Positions 34,766-51,963 of a DNA stretch of 64,000 nt are shown here, one piece after another (the stretch's first letter is position 1; every line of letters begins with the position of its first letter). The notes beneath the pieces are model-generated. The model did no database searches. It was not told where the DNA came from and worked only from the letters and a program-made list of their open reading frames with translations. Source of the stretch: Microvirga splendida (GTDB taxonomy: Bacteria > Pseudomonadota > Alphaproteobacteria > Rhizobiales > Beijerinckiaceae); NCBI RefSeq assembly GCF_016427565.1, contig NZ_JAELXT010000007.1, positions 124,001-188,000 of the forward strand, written 5' to 3'. The position numbers and the translations under genes are program-made.

Positions 34766-34855
34766 GGAGGGGTGGCCGAGTGGTTTAAGGCAGCGGTCTT
34801 GAAAACCGCCGTGGGTGCAAGCCCACCGTGGGTTCGAATCCCACCCCCTCCGCCA
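34766..34855 (+). tRNA. tRNA-Ser (anticodon UGA)
   Basis: A class II tRNA of 90 bases with encoded CCA. The acceptor stem GGAGGGG pairs with the 3' CCCCTCC region, the discriminator is G and CCA ends at 34855. The D-loop is TGGCCGAGTGG. The anticodon loop is CTTGAAA with stem GCGGT/ACCGC, so the anticodon is TGA, reading UCA and related UCN codons. A long variable arm (GTGGG...CCCAC type) and the TTCGAAT T-loop fit serine tRNA. Confidence 0.96.
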
Positions 34856-39553: not shown

Positions 39554-39603
39554 AGAGCATCGTTTAGCGAAAAACCGGGCCCACTTTTTTCGCACGATGC
39601 TCT
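39554..39603. repeat. REP-like extragenic palindrome, copy B
   Basis: AGAGCATCGT (39554-39563) is exactly mirrored by ACGATGCTCT (39594-39603). The inner arms CGAAAAA and TTTTTTCG flank CCGGGCCC. It overlaps the TAG stop codon (39602-39604) of the adjacent minus-strand gene, and its hairpin with T-rich arm could end that transcript. Confidence 0.85.
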
Positions 39604-39961
39604 AGGCGCAGGCCGGAAGGATGAAGGCCGGGACGCCGTTCCAGAGGATGGCCACGAGCGAGAGACCGTTGATCAGCATGCCCGCGTGGCTCAGGAATCT
39701 GTCCGTGGCCGAGGCCGGCCGATCCCGCGATTGCCGCTCCGCGCGAACGCACACGACCAGCAGGATGGCAGCCGCCGCCAGGGCTGCAAGGGTGGTCGTG
39801 AGGATGGTGAAGGGAACGACGCCGAGGCCGAAAAGCGTCGCGTCCGCCCAGCCGCGGGCGCACAGGGTCGATGTCGCTCCATAGACGACCGTGAACTGCA
39901 CCGCCCAGGCCAGCATGCCGCCGAGCGTCAGCAGAACCTGAAGGGTCCGAGTTCCGCTCAT
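39602..39961 (-). CDS. Small membrane protein at the end of the cytochrome oxidase operon
   Basis: 119 residues with three predicted helices (about 8-28, 43-70 and 88-112) and Cys in STLCARGW and at the extreme C-terminus. No recognised domain. Its ATG overlaps the coxAC stop by one base (TGATG), so it is translated with the oxidase. It may be an extra small oxidase subunit or assembly factor in place of a classical subunit IV. This is inference from position only. Confidence 0.75.
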   Translation of the reverse strand: MSGTRTLQVLLTLGGMLAWAVQFTVVYGATSTLCARGWADATLFGLGVVPFTILTTTLAALAAAAILLVVCVRAERQSRDRPASATDRFLSHAGMLINGLSLVAILWNGVPAFILPACA

Positions 39962-42528
39962 CAGACGCCTCCGGTCAGGCGCGGGAAGCCATGGACCACG
40001 AGAAGGGCGACGAGCCCCTGGCCTGCCGTGTAGTACCAGAACAGCATGGTGTTATCGAACGTCGTCCGGCGCACCGTGTCGAGCTTGCCGGCGAGCCAGC
40101 GGGCGATGGTGTAGAGGCCCATGACGAGCGTGGTCAGGACAAGGAAGATCTGCAGGGACATGATGGCATAGACCGCTGCCCCGTAGGCATGGGCCGACGG
40201 GCTCAAGGCCGTCTGCCACTGTGCCCAGAGATCCACGGCCGCCGCGCCGCCCACGAGCAGGAGCGCGACGCCGATCAGGATCGGCACCGAGCGCGGCTTG
40301 CGCCGATCCTCGCCGCGCAGTTGGCGGCTGGCCACGGCAACGAGCGCCACGCTGGCGCAGTAAAGGAATGCCGAGAGAGCGGGCCAGATCCAGTCCGGGA
40401 TCCGAACGCCCTGCGGCGGCCATGCGCCCGGGTTCACGAGCCAGAGGAAGAGATAGGAGAAGATCAGGCAGGTGAAGACCATGCCCATCACCACCATGAG
40501 GACGATCATCGCCCACCAGGAATGGTTCATCGGACCCGTGGCGTAGACCGGAAGCACGATGCCGCCGCCGATATCGGCAGGCGGGCGGATCGGGCCGGGA
40601 TCGGTTTCCCACAGCCACCAGATCACGCATCCGAGGGCAAGAACGCCGCAGATCGCCGCGGGGAAGACGAACTTCACCGTCAGAAGCAGAAAGAAAGCGG
40701 CCGTGAACACGGCAGCCAGGAGAGGCTGCCACCCCGGTCCCGGGATCTGGAGGATGTACTGGGGCCGGGCGTCGAAGGGGCTCGTGACCAGTGCTTCGCG
40801 CCCGCCGGTCACCGTTCCGGGCATGTAGTAGCGGCCGTCCTCGACGTCCTTCGACAGGTTGGGCTGATCCCACAGGGGTTCGCGGCTCACGACGGCCGGA
40901 ATGCTGCGGGTGGCATAGTTGCCGTTCGGCAGCCATTCCAGCGTGCCCGCGTTCCAGACGTTGCCGGCATTGTCCTCCGACGCAAGACGGAAGTTGCGCG
41001 CCATGTCGAACACGAAGAGCGCAACGCCCGCCGCCAGCATGAAGGCCCCGATCGTGGACACCAAGTTCAGCTCGTCCCATCCCATGCCGACCGGATAGGT
41101 GTAGACGCGCCGGGGCATTCCGATCAGGCCGGTGATGTGCATGGGCAGGAACGTCACGTTCATGCCGAGGAACATGAGGCCGAAGACCCAGCGCCCGAGC
41201 CGCTCCGAGAGCGCCCGCTTGCTCGCCACCGGAACCCAGTAGTAGATGGCAGCAAAAAGCGGAAACACCATGCCGCCGATGAGCACGTAGTGCAGGTGCG
41301 CGACCACGAAGTAGCTGTCATGCGCCTGCCAGTCGAACGGCGCCATGGCGACCATCACGCCGGTCAGGCCGCCGAGGGTGAAGACGAACAGGAAGCCGAT
41401 GATGAAGAGCGACGGCGTCGTGAGCTTCATGCGGCCGGACGCGATAGTGGCGATCCAGGCAAAGACCTGGATGCCGCTCGGCACCGCCACGGCCGTGCTG
41501 GCCGCCGAGAAGAAGCCCAGCGACATCTTCGGCAGGCCCGTGGCGAACATGTGGTGCACCCACAGGCCGAAGGAGAGGAAGCCCGTGGCGATGAGGGCGA
41601 GCACCACGAGGCGGTAGCCCACCAGCGGCGTCTGCGCCATGGTCGGCACGATCATCGACACCATGCCGGTGGCCGGCAGGAAGATGATGTAGACCTCCGG
41701 GTGGCCGAAGAACCAGAACAGGTGCTGCCACAGCAGCGGGTCCCCGCCCCTCTCGGCGATGAAGAACGGCCAGTCGAAGGCGCGCTCCATCTCCAGCAGC
41801 AGCGTGCCCAGGATGATCGCCGGAAAGCCGATGACGATCATGACGGCGAAGACCAGCATGGCCCAGGAATAGACCGGCAGCTTGTCGAGGCTCATGCCGA
41901 CCGCGCGGGTCTTCATGACGCCCACGATGATCTCGATGGCACCCGCGATGGCGGAGATCTCGATGAAGCCGATGCCGAGGAGCCACCAGTCGGCGTTCTC
42001 GGCGGGCGAGTATTTGGTGCTGGTGAGCGGCGGATACATGAACCAGCCGCCGTTGGGCGCCAGCCCGAAGAAGATCGTGCCGAAGAACACGAGGCCGCCG
42101 ACGAAGTAGGCCCAGAAGGCATAGGCCGACAGGCGCGGGAACGGCAGGTCGCGCGCCGCCTGCATGTTGGGCAGCAGATAGACGCTCGCCGCCTCCACGG
42201 CCGGCACGGCGAAGAGGAACATCATCACCGTGCCGTGCATGGTGAAGAGCTGGTTGTAGAGATCGTGGCTGACGAAATCGCTTTCCGGCGACGCGAGCTG
42301 GACGCGCATGATCAGCGCGAGGATTCCGGCCAGGACGAAGAACAGGAGGGCCGTGCCCACATACCACAGGCCCACATAGGTGTTGTTCACCGCCGTGATG
42401 AAGCTCAAGCCCCGCGGCGCCTTCCATGGCCTCTTGAGCGCCTCGAGCTCGCCCTCGGGACGAGGCACCGGGTTGGGGAACTCCGCGTCCGGGCGCTCGA
42501 AGGATTTCGGGAGCTCGGGGACGTTCAT
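39961..42528 (-). CDS. Cytochrome c oxidase subunit I-subunit III fusion
   Basis: 855 residues from ATG 42528. The subunit I part (about 1-560) has the heme a ligand in LFTMHGTVMMF, CuB ligand and cross-linked Tyr in FGHPEVYI, the HHMFATG pair, and the heme pair in FVVAHLHYV. After a soluble linker (about 560-640), a subunit III-like part follows, with NHSWWAMIVLMVVMGMVFTC and a final FDNTMLFWYY segment. Such I-III fusions occur in some heme-copper oxidases. The start overlaps coxB by ATGA (42525-42528). It should form the catalytic core of a caa3-like oxidase. Confidence 0.93.
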   Translation of the reverse strand: MNVPELPKSFERPDAEFPNPVPRPEGELEALKRPWKAPRGLSFITAVNNTYVGLWYVGTALLFFVLAGILALIMRVQLASPESDFVSHDLYNQLFTMHGTVMMFLFAVPAVEAASVYLLPNMQAARDLPFPRLSAYAFWAYFVGGLVFFGTIFFGLAPNGGWFMYPPLTSTKYSPAENADWWLLGIGFIEISAIAGAIEIIVGVMKTRAVGMSLDKLPVYSWAMLVFAVMIVIGFPAIILGTLLLEMERAFDWPFFIAERGGDPLLWQHLFWFFGHPEVYIIFLPATGMVSMIVPTMAQTPLVGYRLVVLALIATGFLSFGLWVHHMFATGLPKMSLGFFSAASTAVAVPSGIQVFAWIATIASGRMKLTTPSLFIIGFLFVFTLGGLTGVMVAMAPFDWQAHDSYFVVAHLHYVLIGGMVFPLFAAIYYWVPVASKRALSERLGRWVFGLMFLGMNVTFLPMHITGLIGMPRRVYTYPVGMGWDELNLVSTIGAFMLAAGVALFVFDMARNFRLASEDNAGNVWNAGTLEWLPNGNYATRSIPAVVSREPLWDQPNLSKDVEDGRYYMPGTVTGGREALVTSPFDARPQYILQIPGPGWQPLLAAVFTAAFFLLLTVKFVFPAAICGVLALGCVIWWLWETDPGPIRPPADIGGGIVLPVYATGPMNHSWWAMIVLMVVMGMVFTCLIFSYLFLWLVNPGAWPPQGVRIPDWIWPALSAFLYCASVALVAVASRQLRGEDRRKPRSVPILIGVALLLVGGAAAVDLWAQWQTALSPSAHAYGAAVYAIMSLQIFLVLTTLVMGLYTIARWLAGKLDTVRRTTFDNTMLFWYYTAGQGLVALLVVHGFPRLTGGV

Positions 42529-43553
42529 TTCAAGCTCTCCAGGTAGCCGGCCAGCGCCCGCAGGTCCTCGCCGGTGAGCGAACCGTAGGAAGGCATCCTG
42601 GCTCCCGGCTTGATGTGCTGCACGTTGGCGATCCAGCCGGCCAGCGTGCCGATGTTGTTCGGGAACTGGCCCGCCCCGATGGTCCGCCGGCTGCCCACAT
42701 GGGTGAGATCGGGACCGACCCGGCCGTCGGCATCGGTGCCCCGCACCACGTGGCAGGAGCCGCATCCGCCGCTGCGGAACAGCTGACGGCCTCGCTCCAG
42801 GAACGGGGTCGCCGGCTCCCGGGCGGGTTGGGCCTGTGCCCTGCGCCAGGCCTCGAACGCGGCGGGTTCGAGCGCCATCACGTCGAAGGCCATGCGGGCA
42901 TGCTGGGCGCCGCAGAACTCGGCGCACACGCCGCGATAGATGCCGGGCCGATCCGCGGTGAAGTTGAAGGTGTTGATCCGCCCCGGGATCATGTCGATCT
43001 TGCCGCCGAAGTTGGGAATCCAGAAGCTGTGGATCACGTCGAATGACGTGACGGTCACTGCGATCGGCCGGCCGATGGGAACCACGAGCTCGTTTGCGGT
43101 CGAGAACTCGCCCTGTTCGCCCTCGGCCGGGTAGCGCACGCGCCACCAGTACTGCTCGCCGACCGCCTCGATCTGCAGCGCACCGGCTTGCGGCACATCG
43201 GTATTGCGCATGACCACGAGGCCGTAGGGAAGAAGCAGGGAGAGGGTCACGATGGGAAAGGCCAGTCCGCCATACACGATGGTCCTGCGGGTTCCGAGCC
43301 ACGCGCGGCTCTCAGGCGGGGCGAAGATCGCGTAGAGCAGCAGCGCGGTCACGAAGATGAAGATGACGGTGGCCCCCACGGTCATGACGATGGTGAGCCA
43401 ATAGAGGTCCCAGGCGTCGCCCCCGGCCGGATCCAGGGCCGACTGCACGCCGCTGCATCCTGCGAGCGGAACAGCCCACACAAGCCCGCCTGCGCACCTC
43501 GCAGCGGGGTTCAGCCGCCCTCGGAGGCGCTTCAGGGTCGTTTCGTGGTCCAT
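42525..43553 (-). CDS. Cytochrome c oxidase subunit II with fused cytochrome c domain
   Basis: 342 residues. An N-terminal lipobox-like AVPLAGC suggests a lipoprotein signal. Two helices (about 50-75 and 90-110) anchor the protein. The CuA centre has HSFWIPNFGG and GVCAEFCGAQHARM. A C-terminal class I cytochrome c domain (about 245-342) has heme motif CGSCH and a Met ligand near ARMPSYG. This is the layout of caa3-type oxidases, where electrons can enter directly through the fused heme. It is divergent from the ctaG-like gene with only 39 bases between. Confidence 0.94.
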   Translation of the reverse strand: MDHETTLKRLRGRLNPAARCAGGLVWAVPLAGCSGVQSALDPAGGDAWDLYWLTIVMTVGATVIFIFVTALLLYAIFAPPESRAWLGTRRTIVYGGLAFPIVTLSLLLPYGLVVMRNTDVPQAGALQIEAVGEQYWWRVRYPAEGEQGEFSTANELVVPIGRPIAVTVTSFDVIHSFWIPNFGGKIDMIPGRINTFNFTADRPGIYRGVCAEFCGAQHARMAFDVMALEPAAFEAWRRAQAQPAREPATPFLERGRQLFRSGGCGSCHVVRGTDADGRVGPDLTHVGSRRTIGAGQFPNNIGTLAGWIANVQHIKPGARMPSYGSLTGEDLRALAGYLESLK

Positions 43554-43592
43554 CCGCCCTAGGTCATTTCTTCGTGCATTGAACGGAAAAGC

Positions 43593-44582
43593 TTGGCCGT
43601 GAGAGTTGGTTCCCGAAAGGCATCTCCGAACAGGTCCCTCAGGACCGAACTAGGACTCGCGGCCGGTTTTGCCACCGTGCCGTTCGGGCAGCCTGCGTTT
43701 GCCCATGGGGCGGCACCTCACGGCGAGGGCGATCTCTGGCACGCGTGGCATGCGGACCCGCTGATCACGGTTCCCCTACTGGCCTCGTGCCTGCTCTTCA
43801 CGCGGGGCGTCCTGCATCTGCGGCGGGACCTCGGGCGGTTCCCTCCCGGCTTCGGCCGGCGGCAGATCGCCTGCTTCGTCCTGGGAGCGGCGCTTCTCGT
43901 CGTCGCCCTCCTGTCGCCGCTCGAGGCGCTGTCCGCGACCCTGCTCTCGGCCCACATGGTGCAGCACATCCTGCTGATCGCCCTCGCCCCGCCGCTTCTC
44001 GTCCTCGGCAAGCCCGAGGTCGCATGGGTGTGGGCGCTCCCGGTGCATTGGCGGCGCGGCATGGCCCGCCACGGTCCGCTGCGATCCGGGCTCGCGCTCC
44101 TGTCGCCCTGCGCGAGACCCGTCCCGGCAGCCCTGATCCACATGGCCACCCTGTGGATCTGGCACAGCCCGATGCTGTTCGACGCCGCGGTCGCCTCGGA
44201 CACGCTGCACTGGCTCGAGCACGTCCTGTTCTTCGGCACGGCGCTGCTGTTCTGGCGGGCCGTGATCAAGGCTCATTCCGGCCGGGAGGCTGCGGCGGCC
44301 GCCCTCATCGCCTCCTTCATCACCCTGCTTCAGAGCGGCCTGCTCAGCGCCCTCCTCAGCTTCGCGCGCGAGGCCCTGTATCATGCGCCCGACACGATGG
44401 ACTGGGGTCTGACAGCTCTGGAAGATCAGCAACTGGCAGGAGCTATCATGTCCCTACCGATGTGCGCGATCTATCTTGCGGCCGGGCTCGTCATGGCGTT
44501 TCGCCTCCTGACGCCACGCGGATCGGAACGGGCGCGGCCCTCGCCGGTTGCCACACCAGATGTCCTGAAGCCGAGCCGATGA
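43593..44582 (+). CDS. CtaG-type cytochrome c oxidase assembly protein
   Basis: About 329 residues of the caa3_CtaG family (distinct from Cox11). A signal-like N-terminus is followed by GEGDLWHAWHADPLITVPL, then about seven membrane helices with conserved histidines (HMVQHILLIALAPPLL, HMATLWIWHSP, LHWLEHVLFF). It is thought to help metal insertion into caa3-type oxidase. The start is uncertain (TTG 43593 or GTG 43599). It overlaps the following cytochrome c gene by ATGA. Confidence 0.88.
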   Translation: MAVRVGSRKASPNRSLRTELGLAAGFATVPFGQPAFAHGAAPHGEGDLWHAWHADPLITVPLLASCLLFTRGVLHLRRDLGRFPPGFGRRQIACFVLGAALLVVALLSPLEALSATLLSAHMVQHILLIALAPPLLVLGKPEVAWVWALPVHWRRGMARHGPLRSGLALLSPCARPVPAALIHMATLWIWHSPMLFDAAVASDTLHWLEHVLFFGTALLFWRAVIKAHSGREAAAAALIASFITLLQSGLLSALLSFAREALYHAPDTMDWGLTALEDQQLAGAIMSLPMCAIYLAAGLVMAFRLLTPRGSERARPSPVATPDVLKPSR

Positions 44583-45121
44583 TCCTCAGTCCTTTCCGCC
44601 TGATCCTGATACCCACTATCCTGATGGGGCTTGCCGCCTGCAGCGACAGCGAAGGCCAATCCTCGCGCCTGACGATTGCGGGCGGCGAGCCGGAGCAGGG
44701 ACGCGCGCTGATTCAGGCCTATGGCTGCGGCACCTGCCACACCATCGAGGATGTGCGCGGCGCGAGGGGCAAGGTGGGGCCGCGCCTGGAAAACTACGCC
44801 CAGCAGCACCTCCTCGCCGGCTTCCTGCCGAACACGCCGCTGAACCTGATCGCCTGGCTGATGGATCCCCCAGCCCTGAAGCCCAACACCGGCATGCCCG
44901 CGCAAGGGGTGAGCGAGGCGGAAGCCCGGCACATCGCCGCCTATCTCTATTCCCTGGGGCGAGAAGGGATGCGCGTCTATCCGCAGGGCCCCCCGCTCCA
45001 GCTCCGCGCCGAGGAGGAAGTGACCGCCGACATCCCGAACCCGCCTGCGGTTCCCGAGGGAACCGACGTCCGCACCCGCCGCATCGTGCCCAATCCCGAT
45101 GGGAGCGCACCGAAGAGCTAA
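44579..45121 (+). CDS. Lipoprotein cytochrome c
   Basis: 180 residues from ATG 44579. A lipoprotein signal with lipobox MGLAAC, then a class I cytochrome c domain with heme site CGTCH and a candidate Met ligand in NTGMPAQG. A proline-rich C-terminus without domain follows. It starts inside the stop of the ctaG-like gene, so both are one unit. It could carry electrons between alternative complex III and the caa3-like oxidase from a membrane tether. It converges on actF with a 4-base overlap (45118-45121). Confidence 0.88.
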   Translation: MILSPFRLILIPTILMGLAACSDSEGQSSRLTIAGGEPEQGRALIQAYGCGTCHTIEDVRGARGKVGPRLENYAQQHLLAGFLPNTPLNLIAWLMDPPALKPNTGMPAQGVSEAEARHIAAYLYSLGREGMRVYPQGPPLQLRAEEEVTADIPNPPAVPEGTDVRTRRIVPNPDGSAPKS

Positions 45122-46068
45122 GGCTCCTCCGTCGCCTCCTCGACATAGGTCGGACGCACGCGCATGACTGCCACATAGACGCCGGTCCAGAGAGCGACAA
45201 CCGCAAGGATCAGCCCGAGAGCGAACCAGGAAAAGTCGCCGCGCGGCTGCAGAACCCAGATCATGTGCGTGCCATGATGCAGAAGAGCGAGCGCACTGCC
45301 CACGAGCATCCCCTTGCGGCTCACGCCGGAGGGCACGAGGAGGACGATGGCCGTGAGCATCAGGGCATAGGACGCCCCGAGAAGCGCAAGGTTTCCGTCA
45401 TCCGAGCGATCCAGATACCACGCGACCTCGTGCGGCAGGTTCGCCAGCCATACGATCAGGAACTGCGCGAACCATGTCCACGCCGTCAGCAGCAGCAGGA
45501 TCAGCAGCGCACGCTCCAGGCTCGCCATCCGTTTGGGCGATGCGGGCTCCGTCTTGAGAAGGGTGATCAGGATCGCGCTCGCAAGGGCCGCGAGAACCTG
45601 CCCCAATGCGAAGGCGAACCCGAACAGGCTCGACCACCAATACGGCTCCCGCGACAGCACCCAATCATAGGCCGAGAAGGTCATGACCGGGGTCAGCAGC
45701 GCGAGACCGATGGCGCTGGCGCGCCGCAGATGACGGGTATGCGTCAGCCAATAGGCCAACCCTATGCAGATCAGAAGATAGGCGGCGCTGCGGACCATAA
45801 AAAAGCCCGGGCTCAGATAGCTCGCCCGTGCCGGCGGAAGATCGGCCCGACTGCCGACCCAGGGGAAAAGTTCGCCGAGACCGAAGGCCAGCACGAGGCC
45901 CAAAAGCAGGAGCAGAGGCAGCGTCAGGGCAGCCGCCTCCACCTCGGCCCGCACCGGCGCGAGCCAATGCTCGTTCATGAGATGGCCGATCATCAGCACG
46001 ACCAGACTGCCCATCGCAACTCCTGCCAGGAGGACGAAGACGATGTAGAGGGCCTCCATGGCACTCAT
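45118..46068 (-). CDS. actF: Alternative complex III subunit ActF
   Basis: 316 residues, mostly hydrophobic with about 8-10 helices (for example LYIVFVLLAGVAMGSLVVLM, ALTLPLLLLLGLVLAFGLG and TAWTWFAQFLIVWLANLP). It is the ActF membrane subunit related to the C-subunit fold, acting with ActC in quinol binding or scaffolding. ATG 46068 overlaps the actE stop (46065-46068). It is the last gene of the act operon. Confidence 0.88.
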   Translation of the reverse strand: MSAMEALYIVFVLLAGVAMGSLVVLMIGHLMNEHWLAPVRAEVEAAALTLPLLLLLGLVLAFGLGELFPWVGSRADLPPARASYLSPGFFMVRSAAYLLICIGLAYWLTHTRHLRRASAIGLALLTPVMTFSAYDWVLSREPYWWSSLFGFAFALGQVLAALASAILITLLKTEPASPKRMASLERALLILLLLTAWTWFAQFLIVWLANLPHEVAWYLDRSDDGNLALLGASYALMLTAIVLLVPSGVSRKGMLVGSALALLHHGTHMIWVLQPRGDFSWFALGLILAVVALWTGVYVAVMRVRPTYVEEATEEP

Positions 46069-46562
46069 GGGGTTGCGCTCCCCTGCCCTGACGCAGCTCC
46101 GGCGCCACGGGCCTGCAGTTCCTTCACGTAGTGGGCAATCGCCCAACGATCCTCCGGCGGGACACGGTCGGCATAGGGGAACATCCGCCCTTTGCCATGG
46201 GTGATGACCTGCACGATCTGCGCGGGCTCCAGGGCCCGCACACGCTCCTCGTAATACGAAGGTGGCGGGGCAAAGCCCCGCGAGACGACGGGGCCGTCCC
46301 CGCGCCCGCTCACGCCGTGGCAGGGGCTGCAGAAGGCGTTGAACCGCTCCTGTCCACGGGCGAGCAGAGCCGGCGTAAGCTCGGGCCCCGGAGGCGCCAG
46401 TGCTGCGGCGTATGCAGACGCTCCCCTCGGGACCGCGCCGGGAGGCACGGGCACGTAGGCCCGCTGCACGGCGCGGGTCGAAGCGACGGGATCCCGCTCC
46501 TCCGTCCCGCTGTCGCAGGCGGCAAGCAGGGCGAGGCTGGCGATGGCTGCGGCTAGTCGCAC
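46065..46562 (-). CDS. actE: Alternative complex III monoheme cytochrome c subunit ActE
   Basis: 165 residues from GTG 46562, which lies within the actD stop region and has a perfect AGGAGG (46575-46570 on the minus strand) seven bases upstream. The signal VRLAAAIASLALLAACDSG is a lipoprotein signal. One heme motif CSPCHG and a candidate Met ligand in KGRMFPYA. ActE is the monoheme subunit that passes electrons out of the complex. The longer open frame (to 46868) is a shadow of actD. Confidence 0.9.
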   Translation of the reverse strand: MRLAAAIASLALLAACDSGTEERDPVASTRAVQRAYVPVPPGAVPRGASAYAAALAPPGPELTPALLARGQERFNAFCSPCHGVSGRGDGPVVSRGFAPPPSYYEERVRALEPAQIVQVITHGKGRMFPYADRVPPEDRWAIAHYVKELQARGAGAASGQGSATP

Positions 46563-47092
46563 GCCGGAACCTCCTGTACGGCCAGGGGCGAGAGCGCTCC
46601 GAAGAACGCGTGGACGGCTGCATCGTCGTAGAGGGGATCGTCCTGCAGGATGCAGAGGAAGAACCGATCCTCGGATGCACGTGCGAAACCCGGCGTGGCG
46701 AAGACCGGATGGTGCAGGCGCGGCAGCCGCAGGATCAGGAGCAGACCGATCAGGGTTGCCGCGCCCGCCCAGAGGATCGCGACGATCAACGAGGCAGGAA
46801 TGAAGGCCGGCCAGCTGTGAAGGGGCCGTCCGCCGACATTGAGCGGATAATCGATGGCATTCATCCAATACTGCGAGGCGTATTGAATGACCCCTCCCGT
46901 GAGTCCGGCGACGAGCGCGATCCAGGGGATCACCGACGTGCGAACGCCGAGTTCCTTGGCGAGGTCGGAGAGAGGGAAAGGACTGAACGCATCGAGCCTC
47001 GTGTAGCCGGCGCGCTTGGCCGCCCTGACAGCCTCCATGAGGGCCTCAGGGGTCTTGAACTCCGCCATGATGCCATAGGAGTGCTGCGTCAT
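46553..47092 (-). CDS. actD: Alternative complex III subunit ActD (DUF3341)
   Basis: 179 residues. The N-terminal soluble part starts YGIMAEFKTPEALMEAVRAA, typical of DUF3341. Two helices follow (about 58-80 and 100-122). The C-terminal soluble tail includes DRFFLCILQDDP. ActD is a peripheral or anchoring subunit without cofactors. It overlaps actC (ATGA, 47089-47092) and actE (by ten bases). Confidence 0.9.
   Translation of the reverse strand: MTQHSYGIMAEFKTPEALMEAVRAAKRAGYTRLDAFSPFPLSDLAKELGVRTSVIPWIALVAGLTGGVIQYASQYWMNAIDYPLNVGGRPLHSWPAFIPASLIVAILWAGAATLIGLLLILRLPRLHHPVFATPGFARASEDRFFLCILQDDPLYDDAAVHAFFGALSPLAVQEVPACD
46570..46575 (-). promoter_or_regulatory. Ribosome binding site that fixes the actE GTG start
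   Basis: AGGAGG on the minus strand, seven bases before the GTG at 46562. It lies inside the 3' end of actD and decides the actE start. Confidence 0.8.
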
Positions 47093-48402
47093 GAGGATTT
47101 CTCCTCGTGCTCGTCATGGCGGGTTTCGAACATGGAGACAACGGGAAGGAAGCGGACGAAGAGCAGCAGCAGAGCCACGAACAGCCCGACGGTTCCCAGG
47201 AACAGACCCGTTTCCGGCAGCGTCGGGCTGTAGGTGCGACCGACGGAGGGAAGGTAATCGGTCTGCAGACCGCCGACGATGATGGAGAAGCGGTCGAACC
47301 AGATGCCGACGCCGATGGAAAAGCCGACGAAGACTCCACCCACGGTGCTCAGCCGGGCGACTCTGAACCAGAACAGCTGCGGGATCAGGACCGAGTAGAC
47401 GATCGCAGTCCAATAGAGCCCCGCATACTGGCCAGTCATGCGGGTAAAGGTTGCCTCCTGCGCCAGTCCTCCCGACAGGAGGGCTGCGGCGATCTCGTCG
47501 ATGTAGAGATAGCCGGAGACCAGCGCGCTTGTGAGAACCAGCTTGCCCAGCAGGTCGATATCGCCCTCGTCGATGTAACGCCCGAGCCGCAGGCTCCAAC
47601 GGAGGAGCACCGCCACGAGGAGCACGATGGACAGGCCCTGCGCCAGGCCCGTCGCCACGAAATGAAGCGGCTGGCGCGTTTCATGCCAGTCGGGCACCAG
47701 GGTCACGGCGAACTCGAAGGCAACCGTGCTCTGCATGATGAGGATCAGGGGCAGAACCAGGATGGCGACGAGGCGATAGGCGCGCTGATGATAAGCCCAA
47801 TGGCGCACGGAGCCGCGCCAGCCGAGGGCCAGGACTCCATAGACCTGCTGTACGACCTTCCGCCGGGCGCGGTCGCGCAGGGTCGCCAGATCGGGGATCA
47901 GGCCTACGTACCAGAGCAGGCTCGTGACGATGACGTGGGTGCTGATGGCCCAGAAATCCCAGGTCAGGGTGCTGCGGAACTGCGGCCAGACCTCGAAGGT
48001 CGCCGGATAGGGAAAGGTCCAGTAGAACAGCCAGGGACGCCCGAGGTGAAAGATCGGGAAGATGCCTGCGCAGATGACAGCGAAGAGCGCGACACCCTCC
48101 GCGAAGCGGTTGACCGCCGTGCGCAGATCGTGCCGGCGCAGGACCAGGATGGCGGCAAAGAGGCTCGCGCCGTTGGCGATGCCGATCCACCACGCATAGT
48201 TGATGAGATCGAAGCCCCACACATACGGGATGTTCACGCCCCAGACGCCGACGCCGATGATCGTGACGGAGATCAGCGTGTAGCCGAGGAGCGCGACAAG
48301 CCCGCCGGAGGCCAGGAGCGCGAGCCACCACACCCAGCCGAAATGCGGGGAGAGTGGGACATCGGCGACCCGGCTCGTCGCTGCGTGGGCGTCGCTGCTC
48401 AT
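47089..48402 (-). CDS. actC: Alternative complex III subunit ActC (NrfD/PsrC-like)
   Basis: 437 residues with about ten hydrophobic segments in the NrfD/PsrC family pattern (WLALLASGGLVALLGYTLI, then FDLINYAWWIGIANGASLF). Family members hold the quinone site of complex-iron-sulfur enzymes. Here it should take electrons from quinol and hand them to the ActB iron-sulfur centres. It begins four bases after actB. Confidence 0.92.
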   Translation of the reverse strand: MSSDAHAATSRVADVPLSPHFGWVWWLALLASGGLVALLGYTLISVTIIGVGVWGVNIPYVWGFDLINYAWWIGIANGASLFAAILVLRRHDLRTAVNRFAEGVALFAVICAGIFPIFHLGRPWLFYWTFPYPATFEVWPQFRSTLTWDFWAISTHVIVTSLLWYVGLIPDLATLRDRARRKVVQQVYGVLALGWRGSVRHWAYHQRAYRLVAILVLPLILIMQSTVAFEFAVTLVPDWHETRQPLHFVATGLAQGLSIVLLVAVLLRWSLRLGRYIDEGDIDLLGKLVLTSALVSGYLYIDEIAAALLSGGLAQEATFTRMTGQYAGLYWTAIVYSVLIPQLFWFRVARLSTVGGVFVGFSIGVGIWFDRFSIIVGGLQTDYLPSVGRTYSPTLPETGLFLGTVGLFVALLLLFVRFLPVVSMFETRHDEHEEKSS

Positions 48403-48406
48403 GGGC

Positions 48407-51307
48407 CTATCCGTTCTCCTTCGGGTCCTCGACGCGGGCGAGATAGGTGGTGCGCGGCTGCGTGTTCAGCGATCCCAGGAGGGCGTAGTTGCGCGGGCTC
48501 CGCTTGAGGCGGCTGACGGCGCTGTCGGAATCATTGGTGTCGCCGAACACGATGGCCCTGGTCGGGCAGACCTGCTGGCAGGCGGTCATCACCTCGCCGT
48601 CGTTCACAGGCCGCTCCTCGACGCGCGCATTCGCGCGGGCCGTCGCGATCCGCTGGACGCAGAAGGTGCACTTTTCCATCACGCCGCGGTCGCGGACCGT
48701 CACCTGCGGGTTCGTGGCTTCGAACGGGGCCGAGACGTTCGTGTCCTGATAATCGAGGAAGTTGAAGCGGCGCACCTTGTAGGGGCAGTTGTTCGAGCAG
48801 GTCCGCGTGCCGACGCAGCGGTTGTAGACCATGTCGTTGAGCCCCTCCGAGGAATGCACCGTCGCATTGACGGGGCACACGACCTCGCAGGGCGCCTTCT
48901 CGCAATGCATGCAGAGGACCGGCTGGAAATAGGTCTCGGGCGCGGCCGGATCGCCCGCATAATACCGGTCCACGCGGAGCCAGTGCATCTCGCGCCCGCG
49001 CGCGACCTCCTCGGGACCGACGACCGCGATGTTGTTCTCAGCCTGGCAGGCGATCACGCAGGCATTGCAGCCGATGCAGGCGTCGAGATCGATGGCCATG
49101 CCCCAGGCATGATCCCGGTAGGGCCATTCGGGATAGATGGATGGGTGAACCGGCTCGGGAGGCACGGCCTCTCCGGGCGCCACCACGCGCACGATGTCGC
49201 GCCCCTGCAGCGAATGGTGCTGCTGCGTGGAGATGACGGGGATTTTTTCGCCGACGCGCCGCATCTCGCCGGCGGCCATCCATCGGGAATCCGAGGGGCG
49301 GACGGAATAGGCGTCGAAGCCGATCCCGGTGCCGATCCGGCCGGCCGAGCGGCGGCCGTAGCCGAGGGGCAGGGTCACGGCCCCAGGGGCATGGCCGGGC
49401 AGCAGCCATACGGGCGCCCGCACGACGCGTCCATTGACGGACAGGTCGACGGCATCGCCCGAAGCGAGGCCGAACACCTCCGCGGTTTCCGGCGCGATCA
49501 GGGCGGCATTGCCCCAGACCTGCTTCGTGAGAGGCTTGGGCAGCTCCTGCAGCCAGCCGTTGTTGGCGTAGGAGCCGTCCCACACGGACGGATCGGGGGA
49601 GAACTGAACATCGATCCCGGCAGACGGAGCTGGCGCTGCGGGCTCGGGGCTCCAACCGGACTGGAGGGCAATATCGACTGCGGGGGCCGCAGAGTCCTCG
49701 ATCACGCCGTCCTCGAGGGCTCGCACCCAGCGCTCTTCGAAGGCATCGCCCCAGGCCTCGCGCCATGTGGCCTGGACTAATCCGCGGCCATCCGCGTTCT
49801 GGCCCGCCATGAGGCCGAGGAACTCCTCGGCGCTCAGGCCCGACTTCAGCCGCACCGTGGTCGGCTGACGCAAGCCGACCGTGCCGTTGAAGGCCCTCAG
49901 GTCGCCCCAGCTTTCGAGCGGGTGGCTCTCGGGGATGTGCCAGTGGCAGACAGCGCCCGTCTCGTCCCGGTGCTGGCCGATATGCAGGGAGAGCGGCACG
50001 CGCGGCACGAGCGCGGCCAGTTCAATGTCGGCCGGGGCCGTGTAGACGGGGTTGCCGCCGAGGATGACAAGGCGCGAGACCTGTCCGGCCCGAATGGCTT
50101 CCGCCAAGTCGGCGAGGGTCCGAACCTCACCCGGCAGAGCCCGCAGCGGCTCGATGGCGCGCATCGTCGTGCCGAAGGCGCCGAGGCGGGCATTGATGGC
50201 GAGGGCTAGCGCATGGACGCGGGCGGATTGCTCGAGGCCCGCCGCGACGAGGGCCCGGGTTCCGGCGCCGCGCAGCGCATCGGCCAGGCGGGGGACAGCG
50301 GGATGGGAACCGGGTGGCACGGTGCCTGTCTCGACAGCCGCCGCGAGCGCCTCCGCGAAGGTCTCGAACTCCCTCGGACGGAGCGGGATCCGCTCATCCG
50401 CGCGGGCCCCCACGAGACTCGTGCGCGTTTCGACGGCAACAAGCTGGGGAAGCTCCCGGTCCGGTGCGCGGCGTCGCGCCTGGTAATCGGCCGCGTAGCG
50501 GATGTGGCCCGGCTCTTCGGCAAAGAGGTCGCCGCCCAGGGTCACAATGGTGTCGGCCTGGGTCAGATCGTAGACCAGATCCACGTCGCGCCCGAACGCC
50601 GCCCTGGCTGCCGTCTGGCGATTGACGTCGTCGACGGGCGAGAACACATGCCATTGCGCATGCGGGAAAAGTTGCCGCGCCTGCCCGATCAGCCGATGCA
50701 GCGTCGGCGAGGAGGTCGGCGGCATCAGGACATGGAGCCCCCGGCCCTCATCGAAAACGAGTTCGTTGCGCACGGGGCGGATGAACGCCGTGAGTTCCTC
50801 CCACGACCTCGGCTCGCCATTCTGGAGGGGAGCCTCGGACCGGTCCGGATCATAGAGCGAGAGGATCTCGGCCTGTGCGAACACGTCCGTCGCGCCGAGA
50901 CTCGCCGGATGAAGCGGGTTTCCCTCGATCTTGATCGGGCGCCCTTCCTGCACCTTGGCGAGCACGCCCCTGCCATAGCCGTTCAGCGGCAGGGAGGTGG
51001 CGATCAACACCGGCACGCCAGGCACATAGCCCGGCATGTTGTGGCTCTGCGACAGGAGCGGCTCTCCGGCATCGCTGCCGTTGCAGGCCGCCAGGCCCCC
51101 CAATGCCAGCGAGGCGCCCATCAGCCGAAGCAAGGTGCGCCGGTCGATCTGGGAGGCCTGCGCGATGTCGGGGAACTCGGCCTCGATGTGCCGGCGCACC
51201 TCCGGCAGATCGGCGAGCTCCTCCAGGCTGCGCCAGAGACGCAGCCCCTCCTCCGTCGCGAGACGGGCCCTCAGGGCTTCGAGATCGATTGTCGTTCCCT
51301 CACCCAT
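48407..51307 (-). CDS. actB: Alternative complex III subunit ActB (molybdopterin-like/iron-sulfur fusion)
   Basis: About 966 residues. The N-terminus has a twin-arginine-like signal with lipobox (DRRTLLRLMGASLALGGLAAC). A large molybdopterin oxidoreductase-like B1 domain (about 90-700) follows, expected to lack cofactor as in known ActB. A B2 ferredoxin-like domain (about 730-930) carries cysteine sets CIGCNACVIAC, CMHCEKAPCEVVC, CVGTRTCSNNC and CTFCVQ with CQQVCPT. It relays electrons from ActC to cytochromes. ATG 51307 is chosen; an in-frame start at 51325 would overlap actA. Confidence 0.92.
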   Translation of the reverse strand: MGEGTTIDLEALRARLATEEGLRLWRSLEELADLPEVRRHIEAEFPDIAQASQIDRRTLLRLMGASLALGGLAACNGSDAGEPLLSQSHNMPGYVPGVPVLIATSLPLNGYGRGVLAKVQEGRPIKIEGNPLHPASLGATDVFAQAEILSLYDPDRSEAPLQNGEPRSWEELTAFIRPVRNELVFDEGRGLHVLMPPTSSPTLHRLIGQARQLFPHAQWHVFSPVDDVNRQTAARAAFGRDVDLVYDLTQADTIVTLGGDLFAEEPGHIRYAADYQARRRAPDRELPQLVAVETRTSLVGARADERIPLRPREFETFAEALAAAVETGTVPPGSHPAVPRLADALRGAGTRALVAAGLEQSARVHALALAINARLGAFGTTMRAIEPLRALPGEVRTLADLAEAIRAGQVSRLVILGGNPVYTAPADIELAALVPRVPLSLHIGQHRDETGAVCHWHIPESHPLESWGDLRAFNGTVGLRQPTTVRLKSGLSAEEFLGLMAGQNADGRGLVQATWREAWGDAFEERWVRALEDGVIEDSAAPAVDIALQSGWSPEPAAPAPSAGIDVQFSPDPSVWDGSYANNGWLQELPKPLTKQVWGNAALIAPETAEVFGLASGDAVDLSVNGRVVRAPVWLLPGHAPGAVTLPLGYGRRSAGRIGTGIGFDAYSVRPSDSRWMAAGEMRRVGEKIPVISTQQHHSLQGRDIVRVVAPGEAVPPEPVHPSIYPEWPYRDHAWGMAIDLDACIGCNACVIACQAENNIAVVGPEEVARGREMHWLRVDRYYAGDPAAPETYFQPVLCMHCEKAPCEVVCPVNATVHSSEGLNDMVYNRCVGTRTCSNNCPYKVRRFNFLDYQDTNVSAPFEATNPQVTVRDRGVMEKCTFCVQRIATARANARVEERPVNDGEVMTACQQVCPTRAIVFGDTNDSDSAVSRLKRSPRNYALLGSLNTQPRTTYLARVEDPKENG

Positions 51308-51312
51308 CGGAC

Positions 51313-51963
51313 CTACCTGTGACACGTGTTGCAGCTGGTGAGACGCCGCGAAGCCTCCCGGTAGAACTCGCGGACATCCTCCGGCAGCTCATCGCCATGA
51401 GGCTCGTAGCCCATGGCGAACACCGCCTCGCGGGGACGAAGGTTCGGCACCGGATCGCGGTGGCAGTCCAGGCACCAGCCCATGGAGAGAGTCTCGGTCT
51501 TCACCGTCTCCGCCATCTGGTCCACACGGCCGTGGCAGGTTTCGCAGGCGACGCCCTTCGTCACATGGGCCGCGTGATGGAAATAGGCGTATTCCGGCAG
51601 GCGGTGAACGGAGGTCCACCGGATCGGCTGGCCGAGCGTGAAGCTCGATCGGACGGGGTCGAGAACGCTTGCGCCCACCCAGACCTGGGAGTGGCAGGAC
51701 ATGCAGGTCTGTGCCGAGGGCATGCCCGCATCGGCCGCTCGCTCGACGGTCGAATGGCAGTAGCGGCAATCGATGCTGAGCTGGCCCGCGTGAAGATCGT
51801 GCCGGAACGGCACCGGCTGCGGCGCGGGCTTGCCGACGTTCCAGGTGCTGTCCGCGCGGGCCCACAGATAGGCGGTCACGCCTGCGCCCACGAGCCCAAG
51901 GCCCGTGAGCACGATAACCACCCGGAACAGGGTGGTTGCTGCCGGTGTGAAAAGCTGCGCCAT
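51313..51963 (-). CDS. actA: Alternative complex III pentaheme cytochrome c subunit ActA
   Basis: 216 residues from ATG 51963 (MAQLFTPAATTLFR). A single N-terminal helix (VVIVLTGLGLVGAGVTAYLW) is followed by five CxxCH sites: CRYCH, CMSCH, CETCH, CLDCH and CNTCH. This is the pentaheme subunit of ACIII. It is the first gene of actABCDEF, with the promoter expected in 51964-52318. The open frame to 52107 has no support. Confidence 0.93.
   Translation of the reverse strand: MAQLFTPAATTLFRVVIVLTGLGLVGAGVTAYLWARADSTWNVGKPAPQPVPFRHDLHAGQLSIDCRYCHSTVERAADAGMPSAQTCMSCHSQVWVGASVLDPVRSSFTLGQPIRWTSVHRLPEYAYFHHAAHVTKGVACETCHGRVDQMAETVKTETLSMGWCLDCHRDPVPNLRPREAVFAMGYEPHGDELPEDVREFYREASRRLTSCNTCHR

Follow-up and report, generated by a model that had tools for sequence, protein, structure and literature searches.

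A published model for the coupling of quinol oxidation and proton transport in alternative complex III (ACIII) depends on three residues that are conserved. Glu122 of ActD, Ser245 of ActC and Tyr284 of ActF are hypothesized to connect quinol oxidation with proton pumping, and the part of the source covered here reports a conservation of 98-100% for this triad and no mutation of its residues (PMC5928083). The triad is not a formal defining feature of ACIII. In F. johnsoniae, whose act genes are amenable to deletion and complementation, removal of actA was reported to result in loss of aa3 activity (PMC8552683). ACIII together with a COX operon, termed type a-I, has been described for alphaproteobacteria (PMC4013037, PMC6431628), a subtype that is also named A2-type (PMC10715153), and ActC/F have been counted in 46 alphaproteobacterial species (6%) (PMC8076601). 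Microvirga is named once in the part of PMC4013037 covered here, in a table row on nitrogen metabolism.

This work analyzes an ACIII-caa3 cluster in a 64,000-nucleotide stretch of DNA from the soil bacterium Microvirga splendida (the whole stretch is hereafter called the window). Two features that were missed by the original prediction for this DNA stand out, namely that the oxidase partner falls into the other A subtype and that the proposed membrane coupling residues have been replaced. The literature matches listed and the passages covered, which come largely from openly available main texts, contain no account of A1 pairing in an ACIII clade or of triad loss.

Gene content and distribution of the cluster

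The window carries a complete actABCDEF set adjoining a caa3 oxidase module:

51313..51963, minus strand: actA, membrane-anchored pentaheme cytochrome c (216 aa; 5 CxxCH; phmmer 6lod_A, E 5.6e-55, and 6f0k_A, 3.1e-54)
48407..51325, minus strand: actB, MoCo-like domain and four-cluster Fe-S domain (972 aa; TIGR04519 above cut-off; Fer4 matches)
47089..48402, minus strand: actC, NrfD-like quinol-oxidizing membrane subunit (437 aa; PF03916; 6lod_C, E 6.1e-108)
46553..47092, minus strand: actD (179 aa; PF11821, 185.7 bits; 8k9e_D, E 3.5e-49)
46065..46562, minus strand: actE, monoheme cytochrome c (165 aa; one CxxCH; PF13442 and PF00034; lipobox-like Cys16)
45118..46068, minus strand: actF, second NrfD-like membrane subunit (316 aa; phmmer 6lod_F, E 5.4e-19)
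44579..45121, plus strand: lipoprotein monoheme cytochrome c (180 aa; PF00034; lipobox-like Cys21)
43593..44582, plus strand: ctaG, caa3-type copper assembly factor (329 aa from a TTG start; PF09678 (Caa3_CtaG), 159 bits)
42525..43553, minus strand: oxidase subunit II-cytochrome c fusion (342 aa; TIGR02866 above cut-off; COX2 and Cytochrom_C; 2yev_B, E 1.9e-52)
39961..42528, minus strand: oxidase subunit I-III fusion (855 aa; PF00115 (COX1), 473 bits; A1 motif GHPEVY)
39602..39961, minus strand: small membrane protein travelling with the I-III module (119 aa)

The open reading frames agree with the coordinates and gene order of the original prediction, and the cluster is confirmed: the six act genes lie in the order actA to actF, each with family or solved-chain matches, and all the oxidase neighbors that had been named are borne out by domain matches. 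ActF has no Pfam or NCBIfam match; its predicted fold (pLDDT 89.7) retrieves five ActF chains at the top of the PDB, and phmmer also ranks solved ActF chains first. The ctaG and lipoprotein cytochrome c genes are located on the plus strand in a tail-to-tail arrangement with actF, overlapping by 4 bases, so that ACIII and oxidase form two neighboring modules and not a single operon.

The five CxxCH of ActA and all 15 cluster Cys of ActB, as the original prediction had them (a pentaheme ActA and four cysteine clusters), are kept in 27/27 members of the window's ACIII clade, and the 15 Cys are invariant in an alignment of 10 sequences. The ligands expected for three [4Fe-4S] clusters and one [3Fe-4S] cluster are thereby present behind a Tat/MoCo-like N-terminal domain, with a putative assignment of each Cys to its cluster. 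ActE adds one c-heme site. The lipobox-like Cys residues of ActE and of the extra cytochrome lie in what we take to be lipoboxes. As all cytochromes are predicted to be anchored or fused, the direct electron transfer that had been suggested is plausible, and it equals the R. marinus model as given in the part of that source covered here (PMC5928083).

In the relatives search that had been suggested, the nearest named relatives are Microvirga; in the ActB+ActC gene tree (FastTree), the clade makes up a single set of 27 rows with local support 100. In 20 congener loci (L148-L167), the six act genes, the lipoprotein cytochrome c, the II-cytochrome c and I-III fusions and the small membrane protein are present in 20/20 and CtaG in 15/20, a conservation which argues that the cluster is not due to chance. 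Both ACIII and I-III parts occur in 31/48 Microvirga genomes, and the cluster is present in the laboratory species M. calopogonii (L049). Where a full-length window-type ActB is encoded (n = 32), the I-III gene is found on the same contig in 31 genomes, with 7.6-10.6 kb between match starts. Linkage extends to two further genera (L173, L174, L176), with an inverted oxidase module in L176. The claim that ACIII is less usual in Rhizobiales is weakened by this frequency within the genus and by the prior description of type a-I. The genome also contains a cytochrome c1 gene, which leaves the suggested independence from bc1 putative; with ACIII and oxidase known in Alphaproteobacteria and bc1 also encoded, the taxon is no surprise.

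The genome encodes seven other COX1-family genes, and no YSHPAVY motif was found in the frames scanned at these loci. The ubiquinone marker UbiG scores above cut-off; of the menaquinone genes searched, the menD family gave 3 matches, none above cut-off, and the MqnA/D family no match. Low-oxygen control by an FNR/FixK-type box (presumed consensus TTGAT-N4-ATCAA) found no support, since the 12 matches with ≤ 2 mismatches in the window compare with 9.96 expected and none is located upstream of actA.

The exchanged oxidase partner

For trees and tallies, 10 of 134 loci were dropped, being duplicates (L047, L048), incomplete (L036, L037) or with an ActB or ActC that was too short or missing (L050, L056, L084, L091, L101, L104). 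Among other ACIII loci with 10 kb downstream (n = 73), 67 adjoin an A2-type oxidase (YSHP), one an A1-type oxidase and five none. The caa3 partner of R. marinus is A2-type (YS motif), and a Rhodothermales MAG (L106) also has an A2-type oxidase. In the window's clade, 25/27 members lie beside an A1-type (GHPEVY) I-III fusion, none beside an A2-type oxidase, and two have no oxidase next door. The usual A2 oxidase of ACIII has thus been exchanged for an A1-type I-III caa3 module in this clade. In a quick tree that carries long-branch warnings, the I-III oxidases linked to ACIII group together as a single set (25 rows, SH-aLRT 99) among the stand-alone caa3 modules.

Residues 43-842 of the 855-aa I-III fusion of the window align to subunit I+III of Thermus caa3 (2yev_A), and the fusion displays GHPEVY with no SHP motif nearby. 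Subunit II aligns to 2yev_B through the CAEFCGAQHARM stretch, which contains what we take to be the CuA ligands. The helix VI Glu and the heme/CuB histidines are present, with the roles that we assume for them. The position of the K-channel lysine (presumably Lys354 in P. denitrificans numbering) is occupied by Gln in 26/26 ACIII-linked and 20/20 stand-alone I-III fusions, aligned without a gap opposite the Lys of 6koc, which makes proton pumping by the oxidase itself uncertain. The small membrane protein has no Pfam match, and its predicted fold, a helical bundle (pLDDT 87.8), finds no counterpart in the PDB at E ≤ 0.001. It adjoins the I-III gene in the 20/20 congener loci and in 6/20 stand-alone loci at the sensitivity used.

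The rebuilt membrane arm

The quinol-site residues His119, Ser144 and Asp149 are kept in the ActC of the window, and H139, S164 and D169 (R. marinus numbers) in 27/27 clade members; the quinol-site position Asp253 is Glu in 27/27. The coupling triad is replaced: in the window, ActD Glu122 corresponds to Ile (about residue 105), ActC Ser245 to Ile222 and ActF Tyr284 to Trp197. Pairwise alignments to the solved ActC, ActD and ActF chains set these residues opposite each other with no adjacent gap. Across the clade (n = 27), the ActD/ActC/ActF combination is IIW in 20, IVW in five and IMW in two members, with the original residue in 0/27 at each position. Outside Proteobacteria, Glu122 is found in 55/56, Ser245 in 60/60 and Tyr284 in 58/58 loci, and the full ESY triad in 54/60; of the other six, five have gaps or unassigned residues and one has ASY. 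ESY is also present in 24/32 other alphaproteobacterial and 2/5 beta/gamma loci, and four more alphaproteobacterial loci have ESY and an A2 partner. Glu122 is missing in 7/32 of the other alphaproteobacterial and 3/5 of the beta/gamma loci.

Several charged path residues (R114, R119, E122, D191, R196 and D197, this E122 not being the triad Glu122 of ActD) are kept in 27/27 clade members, and a new His stands at the Tyr176 position in 27/27 and at the Tyr270 position in 25/27, so protons might still move via a changed path. Proton-path columns of ActC are not significantly enriched among the replaced conserved columns (10/19 versus 36/103, p 0.12), which indicates that ActC is divergent overall and that replacement of the triad may reflect this general divergence. 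Per sequence, a mean of 0.386 of the conserved ActC columns is replaced in the clade versus 0.180 in other alphaproteobacterial loci; the group-level count (47/126 versus 3/126) is an unfair comparison because the latter group mixes several lineages. That rebuilding follows the A1 partner was rejected as a rule, since ActC is rebuilt to the same extent (0.34-0.43 of conserved columns) in a separate A2-paired alphaproteobacterial group of six loci. A shortened ActF was likewise rejected as a clade peculiarity: under the same start rule, seven outside loci give 275-344 aa and 25 clade loci 315-366 aa. Purifying selection acts on ActC, ActF and CoxI-III in the seven close relatives measured (mean dN/dS 0.069, 0.127 and 0.099, respectively; own Nei-Gojobori script).

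Interpretation and comparison with known systems

Judging from these sequences, the cluster probably encodes a membrane-bound ubiquinol-to-oxygen branch in which a rebuilt, re-paired ACIII has a different coupling or none. One ACIII clade was paired with an A1-type I-III caa3 module instead of the usual A2 oxidase, its membrane arm was rebuilt and its Glu/Ser/Tyr triad lost, with the redox wire and quinol-site core retained. Quinol would be oxidized at the periplasmic ActC site (His119, Ser144, Asp149) and electrons would still be transferred, presumably within a supercomplex; the additional lipoprotein cytochrome c may act as a bridge in this path or as a branch point. Coupling to proton movement would follow a different route or be absent, in keeping with a voltage drop that is smaller when ubiquinol rather than menaquinol is the donor.

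It is possible, if rather doubtful, that this is an ordinary pumping ACIII-caa3 in which the triad is non-essential and its substitutions arose by neutral drift or as the membrane arm adapted to ubiquinone. The kept charged path residues and new histidines, the strong purifying selection on ActC, the lack of significant path enrichment and the absence of Glu122 from further proteobacterial loci all agree with unchanged pumping. However, the Ile, Ile/Val/Met and Trp side chains found in all 27 members would not be expected to pass protons on or to stand in for the original hydrogen bonds, and the triad is almost fully conserved outside Proteobacteria. We regard it as improbable that the caa3 oxidase is a chance neighbor fed by bc1, with ACIII feeding soluble or other cytochromes and other oxidases, given the linkage in 31/32 congeners and two further genera, even with an inverted module, and the predicted anchors on all cytochromes. 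The two-module layout with ctaG and cytochrome c between on the opposite strand, the inversion in one relative and absence in two, and the cytochrome c1 and seven other COX1-family genes would nevertheless suit such a chance arrangement.

Returning to the altered-coupling reading, an unlikely but more far-reaching version is that the clade abandoned the proposed redox-driven pump and, either without pumping or with a new coupling, now serves as ubiquinol reductase to a caa3 oxidase lacking the K-channel lysine, the two making up a high-flux, low-yield branch beside bc1. Loss of the coupling residues in the sampled loci is concentrated in Proteobacteria, the expected ubiquinone users, and almost absent elsewhere, which would link proton pumping by ACIII to the redox gap of menaquinol. 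The 27 natural enzymes, in which the electron wire is complete and no triad residue is left, offer a natural test of ACIII energy storage: whether they pump or not would directly support or damage the triad model. As the partner exchange shows, evolution can re-pair ACIII and oxidase modules, a point relevant to the specificity of the ACIII-oxidase supercomplex contact.

The R. marinus ACIII-caa3 (6f0k), in the part of its description covered here, shares ActABCDEF, a five-heme ActA with one anchor, a caa3 partner and an ActE next to the subunit II-cytochrome c domain (PMC5928083); in the window, Glu122/Ser245/Tyr284 are replaced and the expected donor is ubiquinol instead of menaquinol. Subtype a-I, as far as its sources were covered, shares the attached Act cluster and the II-cytochrome c fusion (PMC4013037, PMC6431628). 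It combines the Act cluster with an A2-type oxidase (YS motif), whereas the window carries an A1-type I-III fusion (COX1-3) with CtaG and thus falls outside it. A stand-alone locus of the same genome (L041), with a subunit I-III 69% identical to that of the window, also groups lipoprotein cytochrome c, II-cytochrome c, I-III, small membrane protein and CtaG. Such stand-alone COX1-3 caa3 modules in this bacterial order have a different gene order, and no act operon was found beside them in 20 stretches of 11.5-19 kb each. In the F. johnsoniae ACIII-aa3 supercomplex (6btm), too, ACIII feeds an A-family oxidase without a soluble carrier; that system differs, in the part of the source covered, by a sixth heme in ActA, an oxidase not fused to cytochrome c and menaquinol as donor (PMC8552683).

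Composition and spread of the gene cluster

The window (G000:C60:124001-188000) lies on a 204-kb contig of the 5.2-Mb genome of Microvirga splendida. A complete actA-F set beside a subunit II-cytochrome c fusion, a subunit I-III fusion, ctaG and a lipoprotein cytochrome c, as in the original prediction, was borne out by family scans and solved structures, through which each named part was assigned. ActF has no Pfam match and was identified by its fold, the top five PDB matches all being ActF chains. For the 119-aa membrane protein, neither Pfam nor a fold comparison with the PDB at E ≤ 0.001 gave a match. The cluster (window positions 39602-51963) is arranged as follows:

actA, actB, actC, actD, actE and actF: minus strand; six genes with intergenic gaps of -13 to +4 bases
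Lipoprotein cytochrome c and ctaG: plus strand; 4-base tail-to-tail overlap with the act gene set
Subunit II-cytochrome c, subunit I-III and a 119-aa membrane protein: minus strand; beyond the plus-strand ctaG/cytochrome c pair

A tRNA-Ser (tga) gene is located about 4.7 kb from the cluster (34766-34855, plus strand).

A scan of GTDB genomes returned at least 587 stretches. Among the best 80, whose retention biases the named loci towards the window's ActB, the nearest named ones were Microvirga sp. BT688 (ActB 87%), Microvirga sp. KLBC 81 (78%) and M. calopogonii (77%); two loci (L047 and L048) were excluded as duplicates. Full-length window-type ActB (59-100% identity) occurs in 32/48 genomes of the genus, and a 33rd (G331) carries it as a contig-end fragment. 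Four genus genomes (G319, G327, G335 and G314) encode ActB of another type (45-49% identity), G314 carrying both. An intact I-III gene (≥ 62%) was found in 31 genus genomes, always on the same contig as ActB and with 7.6-10.6 kb between match starts. One genome (G321) has ActB and no I-III gene, and another (G341), in which ActB was not detected, has a broken I-III copy with one in-frame TAA (G341:C246:7333-7830). CtaG is present in 15 of 20 fully read congener loci, in 14 of them opposite the actB strand as in the window.

At family level, 26/199 genomes have ActB at E ≤ 1e-30. ActD (PF11821) is present in 15/297 genomes of the order, of which 12 hold the full act set (the window and loci L025-L035); the other three loci (L036, L037 and L038, in G272, G174 and G212) miss parts of it, and their ActC- and ActD-like genes possibly belong to other NrfD-type complexes. 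In the class sample, ActB at E ≤ 1e-100 was found in 6/385 genomes. One of these (G591), from another family, carries ActB only on a 3690-base contig (L249, G591:C91) that shares 87% identity with the window and may reflect misbinning or a transfer.

The act and I-III genes show no decay: dN/dS, averaged over comparisons with seven close relatives, is 0.077 (ActA), 0.128 (ActB), 0.069 (ActC), 0.155 (ActD), 0.147 (ActE), 0.127 (ActF) and 0.099 (I-III).

The oxidase partner

At 124 loci, oxidases were typed by the subunit I motif in helix VI, GHPEVY for A1 and YSHP/YSHPAVY for A2, over a stretch reaching from 6.5 kb ahead of ActB to 10.5 kb beyond it. Partners were tallied at the 100 loci with 10 kb of downstream sequence; the other 24, interrupted by contig ends, showed A2 in five and no oxidase in 19. 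In the window's clade, which forms one set of 27 loci with a local support of 100 in the ActB+ActC tree (124 loci, FastTree), A1 was found in 25 and no oxidase in two. A2 adjoins all 30 other alphaproteobacterial loci, all four beta/gamma loci and 33 of the 39 loci of other phyla, the last group also comprising five without oxidase and one A1, the taxon groups being drawn from record titles and kinship rather than from a species tree. The other alphaproteobacterial group was defined as the loci outside the clade, and oxidase type played no part in this. The single A1 pairing outside the clade (L118, Myxococcales) has GHPEVY in a 647-aa frame. Two loci (L025 and L172) carry an extra A1 oxidase besides A2, outside the tally.

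In the subunit I-III tree, the 25 ACIII-linked proteins group as a single set (SH-aLRT 99) lying among stand-alone modules, with a long-branch warning from the program. As the 27 ACIII loci likewise form one set, a single partner change rather than 25 is the best reading; the L025 protein is placed elsewhere, so its linkage is separate. The act operon was not found in 20 stand-alone I-III stretches (11.5-19 kb each), which gave just weak ActE-like cytochrome matches. The window's own genome holds eight COX1-family genes, five of them on the window's contig, and YSHPAVY was not seen at the seven other COX1 loci in the frames scanned.

In the window oxidase (39961-42528; P. denitrificans numbers), the D-channel residues Asp124 and Glu278 are kept, and Asn113 is replaced by Val, Asn131 by Ser and Lys354, of the K-channel, by Gln. 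Position 354 is Gln in 46/46 I-III fusions (26/26 ACIII-linked, 20/20 stand-alone) and Lys in five A2 rows; position 131 is Ser in 43/46 fusions. Family A oxidases with a variant or lost K-channel have been described before (PMC8239418).

Redox wire, membrane arm and coupling

The cofactor-binding residues of ActA and ActB, expected to be intact, were indeed retained in a wider alignment, with five CxxCH motifs in ActA and all 15 cluster cysteines in ActB in 27/27 clade members. Divergence was measured as the mean share differing per sequence at columns ≥ 95% conserved outside Proteobacteria.

Mean share of conserved columns differing (clade; other alphaproteobacterial; other phyla)
ActA, 25 columns: 0.001; 0.008; 0.001
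ActB Fe-S domain, 84 columns: 0.023; 0.057; 0.010
ActB MoCo-like domain, 73 columns: 0.097; 0.102; 0.015
ActC, 126 columns: 0.386; 0.180; 0.009 (beta/gamma, 5 loci: 0.133)

According to PMC5928083, ActD Glu122, ActC Ser245 and ActF Tyr284 (R. marinus numbers), reported as 98-100% conserved, are proposed to couple quinol oxidation at ActC Asp169 to proton half-channels. At the three positions, clade members carry Ile (27/27), Ile/Val/Met (20/5/2) and Trp (27/27), respectively. Outside Proteobacteria, Glu122 is kept in 55/56, Ser245 in 60/60 and Tyr284 in 58/58 readable sequences; the counts are 25, 31 and 26 in other alphaproteobacterial loci (n = 32) and 2, 3 and 4 in beta/gamma loci (n = 5). 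Minimum state changes on the tree are seven for Glu122, four for Ser245 and five for Tyr284. For ActF, Tyr284 alone was used, since conservation at the ActF channel positions is low in the other groups too, where the ActF alignment is also less certain. L168 and L175, the two clade members that lack an adjoining oxidase, have lost the triad as well, so this loss is independent of the neighbour.

ActC further shows His97Asn, Ser103Ala, Tyr176His, His247Gln, Asp253Glu and Glu394Asp in 27/27 clade members, and Glu338 gives way to varied residues, none acidic among the 25/27 listed. His139, Ser164, Asp169, Arg114, Arg119, ActC Glu122, Asp191, Arg196, Asp197 and Arg395 are kept in all 27. Two observations speak against a simple reading of the membrane-arm change. 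Proton-path columns of ActC are not significantly enriched among those replaced (10/19 versus 36/103 other conserved columns, p = 0.12), and in an A2-paired alphaproteobacterial group (L035, L080, L095, L178, L179 and L181) ActC is equally rebuilt (0.34-0.43 of conserved columns), with Ser at the ActD Glu122 position.

The window's organism is expected to use ubiquinone, since UbiG scores above cut-off in its genome, three menD-family matches all fall below and the MqnA/D family gave no match. The non-proteobacterial phyla of the comparison presumably use menaquinone. The potential of ubiquinol is about +90 mV. That of menaquinol is -70 mV according to PMC5928083. Pumping might thus have been lost owing to the smaller voltage drop from ubiquinol to cytochrome c.

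The sequence facts on partner and membrane arm are firm, and from them we infer a changed coupling in the clade's ACIII, which is testable. ACIII adjoining a caa3 oxidase is already known; what is new in the window's clade, judging by the loci compared, is the oxidase partner together with the membrane arm.
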